Below, piece after piece: positions 1,515 through 11,421 of a stretch of DNA of 11,595 nucleotides. Origin of the DNA: Dehalococcoidia bacterium (GTDB taxonomy: Bacteria; Chloroflexota; Dehalococcoidia; UBA3495). Each line of letters begins with the position of its first letter. The first letter of the stretch is position 1. Both the position numbers and the translations under genes were made by a program. Under the pieces are notes generated by a model, which worked only from the letters and a program-made list of their open reading frames with translations, did no database searches and was not told the origin of the DNA. The DNA lies in assembly GCA_028822675.1 (NCBI GenBank), contig JAPKDE010000059.1:1-11595 (forward strand), in the 5' to 3' direction.

Positions 1515-1703
1515 CTATTTCCTAACCCAGGGAGCGAAACCATCCACCATCAATTCCATTAAATCGTGAACCATCCGGCTCACCGTGTTCCGGCATTTAT
1601 TGGGTGCCGGAGGTTGTTCAGGGTTTTCAGATTGGTTTGTCTCTGACCCATCACCCATCGAGTTGCCTGCTAAGTGTGTGTGATCTGTGTCTGTTGTAGC
1701 CAT
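1515..1703 (-). CDS. Small hypothetical protein, 62 residues
   Basis: I do not recognise this protein. ATG at 1703 is preceded by GGAG with a 6-nt spacer, a good ribosome site that supports translation. The first 35 residues are polar and Asp/Glu/Asn/Pro-rich and probably disordered. Residues 36-60 (from KCRNTVSRMVHDL) look like one amphipathic helix with Met, Leu and Val on one face and end WVRK. There is no signal peptide or membrane segment. It lies 77 bp downstream of the repeat membrane protein on the same strand and directly before the shared terminator, so it is probably the last gene of that transcript and may be a partner of the membrane protein. That link is inferred from position only. 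Confidence 0.55.
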   Translation of the reverse strand: MATTDTDHTHLAGNSMGDGSETNQSENPEQPPAPNKCRNTVSRMVHDLMELMVDGFAPWVRK

Positions 1704-1780: not shown

Positions 1781-2851
1781 TTAATCGCCTGCTACCAATT
1801 CTGGCTCGGGAGTCGATACCGCTTCTGCGACCGCCTGGTTTCCTTCAATCATTATCATGCGGCGGGCTTCAACGAACCCCACTATGGTTGTGAAGAACCG
1901 AGCCACTGAGTAGAGGATTATTCCCATCCCAAACAGCATCCAAGGCGCTAATGATGCCCCAAAGAGGTTGTTGGCCAGGAAGCTTGACTCGTACAGCCTG
2001 GAGGCTGTGCCTACCACCCCGGAGCCAGCAAACTGTTCTCCCAACATGCGGTCGATGCTCAGGCCGAAGAAAATAACTGCCGGTAGCGTTCCAGAGATGA
2101 CAATCAACACTCCCAACATCAGGGGGCGGAACAAGTTCCAAGGAGCAAGTTCTATCAGGTTGAACGAGGCCGGTTCTTCTTCAGATCCTTCTTCCGGGTC
2201 GTCATCATCGTATTCGTCAGACCCACCGCCAGCGGCGACGATGAGCTTGGAGAAGGCCTGTAGCAGCGCCAGGGTGGTGGTCATGAGGTTGACCACAATG
2301 GCCACCAAGGCCAGTCCGATTGCTACGAACAACGATGTTATACCGATGAATCGAACTGCACCGATCACGGGGCCGAGTAGCCGGTCCAACCGCAGTGCTC
2401 TTTGGTAGGCACCGCAGGTGGTGTCACCGGCAAACTGCATGGTGAGGAAGTGGTTGAAGTTGAAGTCACGTATCTCGGTTATCGTAAAGAAGAAGAACCC
2501 AACCACGAAGATGCCAAAGATTGCAAACGGTGTTACCCATCTGGCCGGCCAGAGCTGAGGCTCCGGTGCCGACGGTCCAGTAGCCGTTCCTGATACTTCC
2601 GCTGACAGACTTCCGTAAGCCCCGCGTTGTTCGCCCAACCACCGGATGATGGTCACCAATAACAGGGCAATGGTGAAGAACAGGATTCCCAGACCCAGGT
2701 TAGTCAGTGGGTCAATCGTTCTGGCTAGAAGGCCGTCCAACCGGACAGCAGTCTCGCTCAGTCCGCCTTCAAATTGCCGGCAAAACCCAGCCAATGACTC
2801 CGGCCCGGGCCGTCGCCAGGGGGAAGGCCAAAGCCAACACGGCGAACCCAA
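1781..2851 (-). CDS. Repeat membrane protein, C-terminal part (frame 2 of a split gene)
   Basis: The family is unknown to me. This frame carries the second half of a polytopic membrane protein. The first 25 residues from TTG 2851 (many Trp, Pro and Arg) are only the other frame read over a membrane helix of the upstream ORF. Credible protein begins at Gln26 (codon 2774-2776). Then come helix 2 of repeat 3 (residues 51-71), repeat 4 (99-200) and repeat 5 (235-331), each two helices around a 40-50-residue hydrophilic loop. Loops have QFEGG at 26-30, QFAGD at 139-143 and QFAGS at 273-277. A strongly acidic Gly/Asp/Glu linker (208-229) separates repeats 4 and 5 and should be cytosolic by the positive-inside rule. 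It overlaps the upstream frame by 83 bp with no ribosome site for TTG 2851, so independent translation is doubtful. The stop is TAA 1781-1783. Confidence 0.65.
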   Translation of the reverse strand: MGSPCWLWPSPWRRPGPESLAGFCRQFEGGLSETAVRLDGLLARTIDPLTNLGLGILFFTIALLLVTIIRWLGEQRGAYGSLSAEVSGTATGPSAPEPQLWPARWVTPFAIFGIFVVGFFFFTITEIRDFNFNHFLTMQFAGDTTCGAYQRALRLDRLLGPVIGAVRFIGITSLFVAIGLALVAIVVNLMTTTLALLQAFSKLIVAAGGGSDEYDDDDPEEGSEEEPASFNLIELAPWNLFRPLMLGVLIVISGTLPAVIFFGLSIDRMLGEQFAGSGVVGTASRLYESSFLANNLFGASLAPWMLFGMGIILYSVARFFTTIVGFVEARRMIMIEGNQAVAEAVSTPEPELVAGD

Positions 2852-3578
2852 AGGTGCCCAGCTTGATTAGGGCAGATGGTATTACCGGTCCCGCCAACGG
2901 TGTGCCACGGCTGGGGTTGTGCTCATCCAGCGCCCGGCGAGCTAACTCCGGTAGGTTTCGCGCCTGTCGGCTCAGGTTCCAGATGATGGTTGCCAGTCCG
3001 GTCAGGATTCCAAATATTAGGAAAGCCTCACCCAGGAACTTGCCACCAAAGACAACGGCGCCTAGCACCCTTTCAATCATCAGATAAGCTTCATAAGCAA
3101 ACCCGGTGGTGCGTCCGTCAAACTCCGCGTTCCTTAGGAAAACCAGGTTTATGTCCCACCAGATGGTTAGTAAAAAGAAGAACCCAAGGAGCAAGATTCC
3201 TGTGAACAGGAATTTGGTGAACATTCTGCTTAACCACGGTTCTTCATAGCTGTCCAGTTCATCTTGGGCTTCACTCAACCCCGCTGAGGCGTAGGAGCTA
3301 AGGCTTAATCGTCCAGTTATTCTTAGGTTTTGAACGATGGTTGCTATGGCAAAACCAATCCCAAGTTTTATAAACCTCAGGCCTAGGAAGAACCATATAG
3401 TAAGTGTGTGGCCAATGGCCTGTTCTGCTGTTTGAGCTGCTTGAAAGAGACCATCTGATGAATTTCCATCTAAGAGTTTATCAACCCAGATGGAGATTAA
3501 GATGTCTCCGCCAGCGAACAGAACGAACAATCCGGACATCACGATCCATAGGCAGATGGTCAAGAATGTTGGGTAGTT
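1859..3578 (-). repeat. Five-copy protein-level tandem repeat (two-helix module)
   Basis: Approximate copies are R1 3309-3578, R2 2949-3245, R3 2621-2885 (spanning the frame change), R4 2252-2557 and R5 1859-2149. The best pair is R2/R4: GFFFLLTIWWDINLVF against GFFFFTITEIRDFNFN in helix 1, and RVLGAVVFGGKFLG against RLLGPVIGAVRFIG before helix 2, both followed by LA-I--NL. R1, R3 and R5 are more diverged. The copies are visible at protein level only; I see no DNA-level repeat. Confidence 0.65.
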
Positions 3579-3599
3579 GGGGATCAATCTATTGATCAC
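2769..3599 (-). CDS. Repeat membrane protein, N-terminal part (frame 1 of a split gene)
   Basis: The family is unknown to me. GTG 3599 has GAGGA 5 nt upstream, a good ribosome site. The 276 residues hold repeat 1 (about 8-97), repeat 2 (119-217) and the first helix of repeat 3 (244-270). Each repeat is helix, external loop, helix, followed by an Arg-rich cytosolic stretch such as RITGR or SRQARNLPELARR. The loop of repeat 2 has NAEFDG (158-162), matching QFAG-type motifs in later copies. The frame ends abruptly at TGA 2769-2771, six bases after codon Pro274. Dropping one base of the CC at 2777-2778 continues the protein as VLPQFEGG into the second frame, which restores repeat 3. There are no catalytic or transport motifs. 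Likely role: an unassigned integral membrane protein, perhaps a scaffold, sensor or transporter. Confidence 0.7.
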   Translation of the reverse strand: MINRLIPNYPTFLTICLWIVMSGLFVLFAGGDILISIWVDKLLDGNSSDGLFQAAQTAEQAIGHTLTIWFFLGLRFIKLGIGFAIATIVQNLRITGRLSLSSYASAGLSEAQDELDSYEEPWLSRMFTKFLFTGILLLGFFFLLTIWWDINLVFLRNAEFDGRTTGFAYEAYLMIERVLGAVVFGGKFLGEAFLIFGILTGLATIIWNLSRQARNLPELARRALDEHNPSRGTPLAGPVIPSALIKLGTFGFAVLALAFPLATARAGVIGWVLPAI

Positions 3600-3765: not shown

Positions 3766-4131
3766 CTAGCTGTGGACCTGGTCCCAGGTGGACTGGAACG
3801 CGTCTCGAGTGGACTTTGAGAGCTTGGAGAAGATTTTCTTCGGCACGTCTCGGTCCTGTTGGTCTAGCTCCGGCGCTACCTTCAGTGCCTCGCTCAGTGA
3901 GGAGATGATGGTGCGGCGTTTATCTGCTGAGAGTTCTCCGACTATCTCTACCCTAGTAGCGACGAAACTCTCGCGGGCCTTGGAATTTACCTTGGAGCTG
4001 TGAAAGGCTTCGATCATGTCACGGATCGATTCCTGACGCTGTTCCTCACTCAGCGAAAGGAGTTGATTGATACGCCCTTTCATCATTGGCTTTCGCATCA
4101 TGTGCGGCATACCGGCCAGCATTTTCATCAT
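3766..4131 (-). CDS. Hypothetical helical protein with Met-rich N-terminus
   Basis: I do not recognise this protein. From ATG 4131 it is 121 residues. The first 19 hold eight methionines with His10, Arg13 and several Lys (MMKMLAGMPHMMRKPMMKG). The rest is charged and predicted all-helical, with two similar stretches, LSLSEEQRQESIRDMIEAF at 26-44 and LSADKRRTIISSLSEAL at 67-83, so it may be an internal duplication. ATG 4131 has no clear ribosome site. The same frame runs upstream through a TAA (4180-4182) to ATG 4203, which has GGAGG at an ideal 6-nt spacing, so the real gene may be about 146 codons interrupted by a nonsense codon. It lies 166 bp upstream of the repeat membrane protein on the same strand and may share its transcript. 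It has no signal peptide or membrane helix. Confidence 0.6.
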   Translation of the reverse strand: MMKMLAGMPHMMRKPMMKGRINQLLSLSEEQRQESIRDMIEAFHSSKVNSKARESFVATRVEIVGELSADKRRTIISSLSEALKVAPELDQQDRDVPKKIFSKLSKSTRDAFQSTWDQVHS

Positions 4132-4179
4132 GCCAACATTGTCACCACCCCATTCTCCTGTGGCTGTATCGTAGCCACC

Positions 4180-4203
4180 TTATTTCTTTCCAAACATTCC
4201 CAT
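4180..4203 (-). other. Seven-codon leader ORF, in frame with the downstream gene
   Basis: ATG 4203 is preceded by GGAGG with a 6-nt spacer (TCCACA), the best ribosome site in this part of the window. It encodes MGMFGKK and then stops at TAA 4180-4182. The frame is open from there to ATG 4131 (16 codons, GGYDTATGEWGGDNVG) and continues as the helical protein. It is either the true N-terminus cut by a nonsense change or a short leader peptide. Confidence 0.5.
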
Positions 4204-4584: not shown

Positions 4585-5670
4585 TTAGTCGGGGTTCATG
4601 CCCTCAAACCGAGGCATCACTTCCTCTGCCAACAGTTTCATAGACTTTTCCCAACCCTGTTGGTCGTCCATGTTGTCATAGACCAAGGAGAGCAGGGTCC
4701 CAAATCCGCCACACATCTCGTACAGGTTTAGTATCTTTTTCTCGACCGTATCTGGGGAGCCGATCAGCCAAACATGCTCGGCCATGTATTCCGGAGTGAC
4801 CGCAGAATCCGGCAGACTGGAGTCATGTTTAATCACTCGGAGCAGGTCAAATTGGGCAAACAGAGGCAGCAGATAATCGCCCCAAACCCGGCCAAGCATG
4901 CCGTTAACCGCCTTGTCGTACGCCTCGTCATCCGAGTCTGCCACCCAGATATCTCGGGTTATCCGCCAGTCTTTTCTACTGGGGGTCCTGCCGCTCCGTT
5001 TTGCGCCTTCCAGGACCGCCTCCCAATGGCTGATCACGTAATCTTGGTTGAAGGCCAAGCTCATGGGAATGAAGCCGCGTTCGCCGGCAATTTTGAGCGT
5101 CTCGGATGCAAAACTGACCGAGGCCACACCGATGGGTGGGTGGGGTTGTTGGAAGGGTTTTATGTGGTGCTTCAACGTGCCGTATTGGGGCTCCGGCAGG
5201 TTGACGTTCCAGAACTGCCCCTTGTATTCAAAGGGCTCGTCTTCCGCCCAAAGCTTGAGAATTATGTCAATCGCCTCGCGGGTCATCTCTCGGTGCTGGC
5301 CGTTCAGACCGTCAACGTCGAACATTGTGTAGTCGGTGGGCAGGCCACCAGCCCCAATGCCAAACATGAACCTACCCTGAGCCATGTGGTCCAGGTAGGC
5401 GACGCGGCAGGCCAACTCTGCGGGATGGTGGTACGGCAGCAAGTGAACGCCTGTCCCCAAACGGATATTCTTGGTCAGCATCAAAGCCTGGGCGATCATC
5501 AGGTCTGGCGAAGGTACTGGCTCCCAAGGGGAGGTATAGTGTTCTCCGATCCAAGCCTCTGAGAAGCCCAACTTGTCGGCTAAAACCAAGCAGTCCAAGT
5601 CCCACTGATGGGCTTGGAATAGCTCCCGCTCCGGCGGATGGGATGGCATCAGAAAGACTCCGTAATCCAT
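4585..5670 (-). CDS. Luciferase-like (LLM class) flavin-dependent monooxygenase
   Basis: This is a TIM-barrel enzyme of the bacterial luciferase superfamily, using FMNH2 or F420 to oxidise a small organic substrate; the cofactor and substrate are not decided by sequence. Diagnostic features are the N-terminal strand MDYGVFLMPS, AWIGEHY at residues 39-45, IRLGTGVHLLPYHHP at 69-83, and GRFMFGIGAGG at 99-109. Later motifs are the LWAEDEPFEYKGQFW segment and the PHPPIGVA strand, both typical of the alkanal/limonene-monooxygenase-like branch. The length of 361 residues is normal. I chose ATG 5670 because GGGGAG lies 5 nt upstream; the GTG two codons earlier overlaps that site. It is divergent from the MFS transporter across 182 bp and has a likely promoter at 5729-5756. 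Such genes are known to be expanded in SAR202 Chloroflexota, so this fits the suspected host. Confidence 0.88.
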   Translation of the reverse strand: MDYGVFLMPSHPPERELFQAHQWDLDCLVLADKLGFSEAWIGEHYTSPWEPVPSPDLMIAQALMLTKNIRLGTGVHLLPYHHPAELACRVAYLDHMAQGRFMFGIGAGGLPTDYTMFDVDGLNGQHREMTREAIDIILKLWAEDEPFEYKGQFWNVNLPEPQYGTLKHHIKPFQQPHPPIGVASVSFASETLKIAGERGFIPMSLAFNQDYVISHWEAVLEGAKRSGRTPSRKDWRITRDIWVADSDDEAYDKAVNGMLGRVWGDYLLPLFAQFDLLRVIKHDSSLPDSAVTPEYMAEHVWLIGSPDTVEKKILNLYEMCGGFGTLLSLVYDNMDDQQGWEKSMKLLAEEVMPRFEGMNPD

Positions 5671-5728
5671 GATCACTCCCCTAGGTCGTTATTGTCGAAA
5701 TTCTAGTCAAATGGCCGTAAGAGCACCC

Positions 5729-9199: not shown

Positions 9200-10255
9200 T
9201 CAGCTATCGCGGAACTTGGGCATGATCTTCTCGCTGAGCAGCCGCATCGATTTGGCGGTATTCTCGCTGGAGATCAGACCACGGTTGGTCAACATCAAGT
9301 TCCTGACACCCATGTCGCGCATCATGGCTATCTGCTCAGTCACCCGCTCCGGTCCTCCGATTAGAAGTTCCCCCACAGTCGGGTCCGGATTTTCAGCGTA
9401 GCCTTCCTTTTTCATGGGAGGCCGCTGCATGTTCACCTCCATCTCCGGAGGGTTCCACTCCTTCCGCACCTCCTCCAGGTACTCGAAGGCGGCGTAATGG
9501 GCGGGCAGATACTCGTCCCAGGCCGCGTCGTTGGTCTCGGCGATATGCATCTCGCGCCAGACCCAGATCTGGTCCAGGTTTTTCTGGACGGCTTCGTCAC
9601 TGAAGCCCGACGCCGACATAGTGTCGCGATAGGCCAGGATTTGCTCTGCAGTGGCATCAAACGTGCCACCCCTGAGCAGCACCGGGCGGCCAATCTTGGC
9701 CAGTTCTATAACAGAAGGCAGAGTGGATGCGGCCCGAGCCAGGGGAGGGTGCGGTTTCTGAAACGGCCTGGGCCGCACGGATGGGAACGCCACCTGCCAA
9801 AACTGGCCCTCGAACTTTACGTTGTCGGTGGTCCAGGCCTTCACCAGCAGCTCTTCGGCCTCGTCCAACTGGGCCTTGCCCAGGCCGGGGGTGGTGCCAA
9901 AGCCCACGTACTCGTAGGCGTTGTAGTTGGAGCCTCGGCCGGTGCCGACGATCAGCCGACCCTTGGACAGGTTGTCCAGCAGCGCGGTCTGATGGGCCAC
10001 CCGCACCGGGTTGTGGAGCGGCAGTTCGATAATGCCAAACCCCAGCGTGATCCTTGACGTCTTGACCGCCACTGCGCTGGCGAAGACCAACGGGTCGCCA
10101 TAAACGCACTCACCGGTGAAGTAATGCTCCGCAAACCAGACGGCGTCCATCCCTAACTCTTCGGCCAAAACCGCCTCGTCCAGACACTGGTCAATCTCCT
10201 GACTGTCCCGGCTGTCATCAAATTTCATGGGATACAGAAAGTGGCCGAATTTCAT
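9200..10255 (-). CDS. Luciferase-like (LLM class) flavin-dependent monooxygenase, second copy
   Basis: A TIM-barrel oxygenase of the bacterial luciferase superfamily, 351 residues, normal length. Key features are MKFGHFLYPM (1-10), AVWFAEHYF (38-46), ITLGFGIIELPLHNPVRVA (69-87) and GRLIVGTGRGSNYNAYEYVG (99-118). Further on are KFEGQFW and the RPRPFQKPHPPLARA segment typical of alkane/aromatic-type LLM proteins. FMN or F420 dependence and substrate cannot be told. It differs from the copy at 4585-5670 in its central region and C-terminus (MEVNMQRPPMKKEGYAENPD insert), so the two are distant paralogues, not a recent duplication. ATG 10255 has AAAGGA 9 nt upstream; ATG 10228 is a weaker alternative. 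It is a lone leftward gene without its own T-run terminator. Confidence 0.88.
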   Translation of the reverse strand: MKFGHFLYPMKFDDSRDSQEIDQCLDEAVLAEELGMDAVWFAEHYFTGECVYGDPLVFASAVAVKTSRITLGFGIIELPLHNPVRVAHQTALLDNLSKGRLIVGTGRGSNYNAYEYVGFGTTPGLGKAQLDEAEELLVKAWTTDNVKFEGQFWQVAFPSVRPRPFQKPHPPLARAASTLPSVIELAKIGRPVLLRGGTFDATAEQILAYRDTMSASGFSDEAVQKNLDQIWVWREMHIAETNDAAWDEYLPAHYAAFEYLEEVRKEWNPPEMEVNMQRPPMKKEGYAENPDPTVGELLIGGPERVTEQIAMMRDMGVRNLMLTNRGLISSENTAKSMRLLSEKIMPKFRDS

Positions 10256-10998: not shown

Positions 10999-11421
10999 TT
11001 GATACAAGAAGGAGAAGGGCAGACCATAGAGTTCAAAAAACAACTCCCGAAACAGGCTGATAGTTTAGCAAAAGAAATTGCAGCTTTTGGTTCTACCAAC
11101 CCTGGCGTAATCCTTCTCGGTGTTGCCAAAAATAGCGATATCATCGGAATAGATGAGATTGCCACCCCTGCTGGGTTCGATGAATTCAGGACCTGGATTG
11201 AAGGAATTTCATCGAACAGCATTATACCGAGTCTGGCGATTCGAGTGAGATCAACTCAAATCGAAGGAAAAAATTTAGCTGTTGTAGAGGTCCCGAAAGG
11301 ACCAGAAGCTGTCTATTACACCAAAAATGGAGTTCCGTATCTCCGCCACGGAAGCTTGTCGAGACCTGCGAATCCCATGGAAGTATATGAACTCATCAAA
11401 AGGCATATTGAGCGGGGCTAA
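10999..11421 (+). CDS. AlbA_2 (Schlafen-type) domain protein, apparently truncated at its N-terminus
   Basis: An AlbA_2 domain (PF04326 family), a putative nucleic-acid-binding fold found in transcription regulators, defence and mobile-element proteins and, in eukaryotes, Schlafens. Visible motifs are GEGQTIEFKKQ (5-15), the helix LAKEIAAFGSTNPG, the strand VILLGVAKNSDIIGID (38-53), and the terminal RHGSLSRPANPMEVYELIKR. From TTG 10999 it is 140 residues, about one domain, with no wing or HATPase extension. TTG 10999 has no ribosome site, and the domain's conserved start (AAELI) lies partly before it, right after TAA 10987-10989. It is most likely the back part of a gene starting at 10714. 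Codon use is AT-richer than in neighbours, consistent with transfer. It converges on the S1-protein gene with an 18-bp gap. Confidence 0.7.
   Translation: MIQEGEGQTIEFKKQLPKQADSLAKEIAAFGSTNPGVILLGVAKNSDIIGIDEIATPAGFDEFRTWIEGISSNSIIPSLAIRVRSTQIEGKNLAVVEVPKGPEAVYYTKNGVPYLRHGSLSRPANPMEVYELIKRHIERG

Follow-up and report, generated by a model that had tools for sequence, protein, structure and literature searches.

The repeat gene and its partner

The window analyzed here is a contig of 11,595 nucleotides (JAPKDE010000059.1, assembly GCA_028822675.1) from a Dehalococcoidia bacterium. It carries, on the minus strand, a gene for a membrane protein of five helical hairpins, and directly upstream a small Met-rich gene that we call the partner. 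The repeat gene is read as two overlapping open reading frames (ORFs), 2769–3599 (276 aa) and 1781–2851 (356 aa), which join into a protein of ~605 residues. We searched for relatives in 5.8 billion proteins at E ≤ 0.01 and scored the 7995 candidates sharing the most words. At least 107 relatives are present among these scored candidates, and the joined ORFs align with intact relatives end to end. Many relatives are 590–620 aa long and 50–78% identical over the full length; the last seven are 28–31% identical. The alignment consensus of the intact relatives is a continuous frame through the overlap of the two ORFs (2769–2851, minus strand), the site of the frame change. Because intact relatives match both ORFs over their whole length, the frame change is private to the window.

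The partner gene (3766–4131, minus strand) encodes 121 aa as called and 146 aa in a close relative (L004). The N-terminal stretch as read in L004 corresponds to 4132–4203 on the same strand. An in-frame stop at 4180–4182, before the called start, is private to the window; L004 reads through. Both genes of the pair are thus broken here and intact in close relatives, and the remaining sequence is under normal-looking selection. The ratio of nonsynonymous to synonymous substitution rates (dN/dS) is 0.058 for the part preceding the frame change, 0.097 for the part following it and 0.051 for the partner, comparable to 0.044 and 0.107 in neighboring genes. Pseudogene decay of the pair was considered and rejected, as its dN/dS is low like that of the neighbors. 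Because both genes keep a low dN/dS, the breaks are either recent or sequencing errors, and these two are indistinguishable because dS (1.3–1.7) is near saturation.

The repeat protein had been predicted to belong to no recognized family, and this is what we find. There is no named family for it in NCBIfam and no match by sequence in the PDB. A Pfam scan of 25 relatives gave a single match, of one protein (L017) to DUF981 (4.6e−5, 23.9 bits), under the family cut-off of 29. Searches of PADLOC, plasmids and IMG/VR, and of the window against Rfam, returned nothing useful. The best match among viral structures, a phage tail protein (E 2.4e−3), was rejected at a root mean square deviation of 37. 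No publications on this family were found among the open-licence PMC papers listed.

Five repeats and ten helices

An alignment of 69 rows of intact relatives was cut into five segments, which were compared profile to profile with hhalign. All ten pairs match, at E-values from 2.6e−4 to 2e−20; the best of 20 reversed-column controls is 0.002. R2 and R5 are the weakest pair (2.6e−4, probability 42.5%), barely above the controls, and the other nine pairs lie at or below 1.2e−7. R2 and R4 are the closest (2e−20), and R3 and R5 match at 1.2e−11. The five diverged two-helix copies of the original prediction, and the special likeness of R2 and R4, are therefore both borne out. When stacked, the repeats show a common plan: helix A, on the outer side, leads through an outside loop into the long helix B, whose pattern is G...L...I...L..I...L..(polar). 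The ten membrane helices that had been proposed agree with ten main maxima of hydropathy and with ten long helices in the AlphaFold2 model of a relative (P0007), although DSSP splits the third outer helix in two.

All five repeats lie on the minus strand. R1 (outer helix A1 and inner helix B1) spans 3264–3599, coordinates derived by hand from the alignment numbering, and bears the lone Lys of the conserved face described below. R2, the closest to R4, spans 2898–3254. R3 (2582–2882) is cut by the frame change in the window, and relatives read through it. R4 (2216–2566) is placed by the profile comparison and the AlphaFold2 model. R5 (1790–2158) bears the lone Arg of the polar ring. The outer loops of the window protein carry (Q/E)F(D/A/E)G in four of the five copies, as had been noted (EFDG, QFEG, QFAG, QFAG). 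In six Heimdallarchaeota rows of the 25-member alignment used below, the outer loops are shorter and the motif is largely missing. The fold thus does not depend on it. The acidic linker between R4 and R5 (2159–2215, minus strand) that had been described is present in the window, but it is variable in the family, short and weakly acidic in archaeal rows, and of low confidence in the model of P0007.

Distribution and conservation of the pair

The distribution of the single-chain protein is patchy. In one sampled Chloroflexi order it occurs in 2/147 genomes (G001 and G002), the other seven matches there being split relatives, and in the phylum of a thaumarchaeon (G008) it occurs in 1/250 genomes. 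The single-chain form and its small helical partner occur together in bacteria and archaea, and transfer of the single-chain gene between the domains is likely.

We collected 24 genome loci of the single-chain gene, five from Chloroflexi and 19 archaeal, two of which (L003 and L020) start inside the repeat gene. A partner homolog lies directly upstream on the same strand in 19 of the 22 remaining loci, as an 87-aa piece in L005. Nine of the partner-bearing loci form one Heimdall synteny block and are not independent. The exceptions are three Thaumarchaeota loci (L008–L010) that have an Lrp-like regulator in the partner's place (tested in L009). A copy of the partner lies ~4 kb downstream in L009 and L010. 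Among 148 genomes sampled from the phylum of an Asgard archaeon (G009), the repeat protein is found in 11 and the partner in 12. Ten genomes have both, always adjacent, and two (G1101 and G1180) have a distant partner only (Fisher p 7e−13, kinship ignored). The eleventh genome with the repeat protein, the Heimdall-like G1136 (L188), has kept the flanking synteny, but the partner is gone and the repeat gene is reduced to a 53-residue tail. The pair has been lost there as a unit.

The L004 partner protein is predicted to be a seven-helix solenoid (predicted local distance difference test 90.8). No clear structural relative of the model was found. Searched by sequence against the PDB, the partner gave only weak matches to armadillo and poly(A)-binding proteins (best E 0.005). 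The MgtE N domain is the closest known system for the partner gene only.

Relatives with one, two or three hairpins per gene

Genome searches with a profile of 25 diverse members (A3) also brought up remote relatives in Chloroflexi whose genes carry fewer repeats. When the two- and three-repeat proteins served as queries, matches came from 22/250 genomes of the G001 order, 15/294 in a class sample and 2/251 in a phylum sample. At least 469 relatives of the two-repeat protein were found at E ≤ 0.01; among the 120 matches listed, those with names are hypothetical proteins, some labeled SAR202 or Chloroflexi. We counted repeats by profile in 43 split loci. Thirteen have three adjoining genes with 1, 2 and 2 repeats (one in the order 2, 1, 2, L046; one with a frame break, L144; one ending at a contig edge, L149). 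Five are 3 + 2, 19 are 1 + 2, and six are cut or partial (L055, L129, L130, L132, L134, L148). Some genomes have two split loci each (G367, G560, G732, G502). The partner gene is absent from all 43 among ORFs of at least 60 residues.

Profile scoring of 11/13 triplets, 5/5 pairs and 13/19 1 + 2 loci relates these genes to one another. The scores show the three-repeat gene to be a fusion of the lone hairpin with the first two-repeat gene (119, 161, 166), and its companion to be the second two-repeat gene (157, 185). The two-repeat gene of the 1 + 2 sets is about equally close to both two-repeat types (194/198 and 218/201). A one-to-one mapping of R1–R5 onto the split genes was tried, and the profile scores do not decide it. 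A polar position near the end of helix B, column 25, reads T, Q, Q, T, R from R1 to R5 of the single chain. In split sets it is Arg on the lone hairpin and, in each two-repeat unit, mostly Gly or Ala and then Gln. Per ring this comes to a single Arg, a pair of Gln and two small residues, against one Arg, two Gln and two Thr in the single chain, so that column 25 supports one common count. In related genomes, two or three shorter genes seem to build the same ring.

A Met/His-rich membrane gene lies near 6/43 split loci (L026:5409–5879, L054:2898–3368, L127:2479–3015, L136:2336–2860, L137:2–409, L145:3254–3727; no Pfam match in three members scanned), and a Crp-like regulator near 7/43. At L046:6793–9448 (G252) a Crp-like regulator ORF continues into a two-repeat protein, followed by a one-repeat gene and a second two-repeat gene.

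Conserved helix face and predicted fold

Conservation was computed on A3. Mean entropy in the B helices is lowest at columns 15, 18, 11, 22 and 25 (0.00–0.13 bits), followed by the Gly of column 3; columns 4 and 8 extend the same side of the helix. The 4-3 spacing of the conserved columns is that of a coiled coil, and its helical periodicity was reached by 2/5000 permutations. Column 8 is Lys in R1 in 24/25 members and mostly Ile, Leu or Phe in the other repeats.

The structure that best matches the model is 8QKD (sc-CC-5), 14 Z units above the next. The original prediction did not recognize the fold. That holds insofar as no natural solved structure clearly matching the model was found, but this designed single-chain five-helix barrel does match. 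The model, like sc-CC-5, has five central helices with outer buttresses in a closed ring. In contrast, sc-CC-5 is designed and soluble and has n−1 = 4 outer helices; the repeat protein has long loops and a partner gene, and its ten helices are predicted to lie in the membrane.

Designed closed single-chain helical barrels were described in 2024 in a paper that reports finding natural counterparts, namely YhiM and some similar proteins, and gives a YhiM model with five central helices (PMC11288890). YhiM of Escherichia coli (DUF2776, PF10951) is, like the repeat protein, an inner-membrane protein with five hairpin repeats in one chain. The ten pairs of its internal repeats (L151:6842–7894) match at E 2.5e−14 to 0.0019; nine are clear and the weakest is unconvincing (six sequences, no reversed control). 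Its repeats are shorter than those of the window family. We found no sequence relation between the two in 50 profile comparisons (best E 0.0057; best of 35 reversed controls 0.0095). YhiM matches PF10951 at 1.1e−158; none of the 25 A3 members or of six one- and two-repeat proteins does. The model of the repeat protein matches the left-handed sc-CC-5, unlike YhiM, which according to the design paper is returned by right-handed six- to eight-helix designs and not by sc-CC-5 (PMC11288890). On sequence grounds YhiM is an analog of the repeat family, not a relative, and we file the repeat family as a new family of five-hairpin membrane rings.

MscL-type homopentameric channels also place five two-helix hairpins around an axis, with small residues and Ile/Leu/Val on the inner helix. 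The repeat family resembles them in both respects but differs in being one chain or a hetero-set, with the small-residue helix second instead of first. MscL (PF01741) gave no match up to E 1 in the 25 A3 members and the six one- and two-repeat proteins.

A putative gated pore and its alternatives

We propose that the repeat protein is a natural alpha-helical membrane barrel with pseudo-five-fold symmetry, formed by a single chain. Its five hairpins would pack side by side, with the Gly-containing helix B of each probably inside, helix A buttressing it from outside, and the N terminus probably in the cytosol. All five B helices present one and the same heptad face, with Ile, Leu/Ile/Phe, Ile and Leu/Val at every other turn. 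Toward the cytosol this face would end in a ring of polar residues (Thr, Gln, Gln, Thr and Arg), with the single R1 Lys higher up. We hold it most likely that such a barrel is a hydrophobically gated pore or narrow conduit that is opened by a signal, and the neighboring soluble solenoid may dock on the cytosolic face as gate or sensor. The analysis establishes the repeats, the family, the partnership of the two genes and the pattern of conservation; the fold and its five-fold closure are predictions, and we rate the barrel itself as highly probable. Given the barrel, the chance that it is a conduit is about even. The explanation as a whole, with the solenoid as gate or sensor, we hold to be slightly better than even.

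Several points weigh against this proposal. Between the five B helices, the correlation of entropy profiles is only r 0.27–0.70. The positive-inside signal is modest (K+R 0.110 inside and 0.074 outside, net charge −0.020 and −0.029). Foldseek found no significant match to the model and placed 8QKD at rank 28 (E 1.1). The lumen residues, the pore width and the choice of the inside helix are inferred, and transport is putative. A closed helix bundle equally requires a long conserved Ile/Leu face. The design paper contrasts the five-helix design with dye-binding six- and eight-helix designs (PMC11288890); because the dye was bound by the larger designs in that contrast, a lumen lined by five helices may leave too little room for solutes. 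The 1 + 2 sets would total five hairpins only with a second copy of the two-repeat chain. The Arg belongs to R5 in the single chain but to the lone hairpin in split sets, which suggests a shifted or independent origin of the single chain and the split genes. The R1 Lys recurs in 5/5 three-repeat genes but in 4/11 and 0/13 lone hairpins.

Finally, the protease neighbors fit another explanation better, in which the ring is no pore but serves envelope quality control as a scaffold or adaptor in the membrane, holding membrane proteases or their substrates, and the solenoid is a substrate adaptor. An FtsH-type M41 gene is on the same strand in L001 (G001) and L002 (G002). An HtrA-type trypsin and PDZ gene is on the same strand in L002 and L008, with homologs in L009 and L010, and 4 kb off on the opposite strand in L003 (G003). 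In G004 (L027) a contig-cut PDZ-domain ORF converges on the repeat gene, so that a protease or PDZ gene is nearby in 4/4 Chloroflexi genomes examined; because of this gene we raised our estimate for the scaffold slightly. A rhomboid lies directly downstream in L011 and L014, with homologs in nine Heimdall loci overall. YhiM, the architectural analog, is tied to the CpxAR envelope stress response in one study (PMC11005409). However, the window has no protease among the ORFs scanned (a few small ORFs were outside the scan), nor do L006, L018 and L019 among the part of their neighbors scanned. The nine rhomboid loci belong to a single synteny block and amount to one event. The rhomboid is still present in G1136 although the pair is lost, which weakens the rhomboid as a functional partner. 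We consider the scaffold rather unlikely. A gated narrow pore is, we infer, the most likely mechanism, and a proteostasis scaffold its main rival.

The ring could instead be a specific transporter, e.g., of a small amine or a metal, as proposed for YhiM, which two papers link to GABA (γ-aminobutyric acid) export (PMC6604978) and to copper content (PMC11005409). The two-repeat proteins (6.6% Met) and the partner (9.5%) are Met-rich, and the Met/His-rich membrane gene lies near some split loci. However, Met is not abundant in the single-chain protein (2.7%), His makes up 0.7% of it and Cys is nearly absent, and neither His nor Cys is invariant. The conserved inner-face columns of the protein have no acid or His, and its family has no sequence link to YhiM. 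Such a transporter appears improbable.

The MotA, ExbB, TolQ and GldL families share a five-fold ring architecture. A stator-like rotary or force-transmitting ring of that kind would account for a five-fold ring of membrane hairpins, but the B face lacks a conserved membrane acid, the conserved partner looks soluble in its model and is hence unlikely to be seated in the ring (a partner with one membrane helix, as such a ring would seat, could be encoded elsewhere in the genome), and PF01618 has no match up to E 1 in the 25 A3 members and six one- and two-repeat proteins; we regard this as very improbable. An ordinary transporter with an accidental repeat number would fit the middling structural matches of the model to many helical membrane proteins, but it is just as improbable given the lead of 8QKD and a sum of five kept through splitting and fusion.

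The family adds a predicted natural single-chain barrel unrelated in sequence to YhiM. Among its relatives a gene may hold one, two, three or five hairpins; this suggests a stepwise route from a ring of like hairpins to an asymmetric ring and then a fused single chain, and makes testable the general question of how oligomeric channels become single-chain and asymmetric. The family is also an initial entry point to a two-gene unit conserved across two domains of life. Only tentatively, and somewhat short of an even chance, might this be a new membrane pore class: a modular natural alpha-helical barrel, always of five hairpins, built either as a single chain or from genes for one, two and three hairpins at a fixed 1:2 or 1:1(:1) stoichiometry. 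One Arg and two Gln would break the symmetry at its mouth, a cytosolic solenoid would gate the single-chain form, and it would be common to SAR202-like Chloroflexi and to Asgard, Bathy- and Thaumarchaeota.

Other genes of the window

Two small same-strand neighbors of the repeat gene had been noted as a possible three-gene system, and both are present as described. The Met-rich 121-aa neighbor is the conserved partner. The other, a 62-aa ORF (1515–1703, minus strand), has relatives at two other places only among the loci examined, so that it is at most an occasional third element. Its C-terminal motif recurs, weakly (tblastn E 0.009), directly downstream of the repeat gene in G003, as the N-terminal part of an oxidoreductase-like ORF, and directly after a two-repeat gene in G551. 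A three-sequence profile gave no further matches among the loci examined. The G003 ORF (L003:1072–2262) joins the motif to a pyridine nucleotide-disulphide oxidoreductase domain.

The window also encodes, upstream of the pair, two luciferase-like (LLM class) monooxygenases (4585–5676 and 9200–10255), the first of which is 90% identical in L004. At 10999–11421 a 140-aa ORF with a Schlafen/AlbA_2 domain lies beside a 91-aa ORF without a Pfam match.
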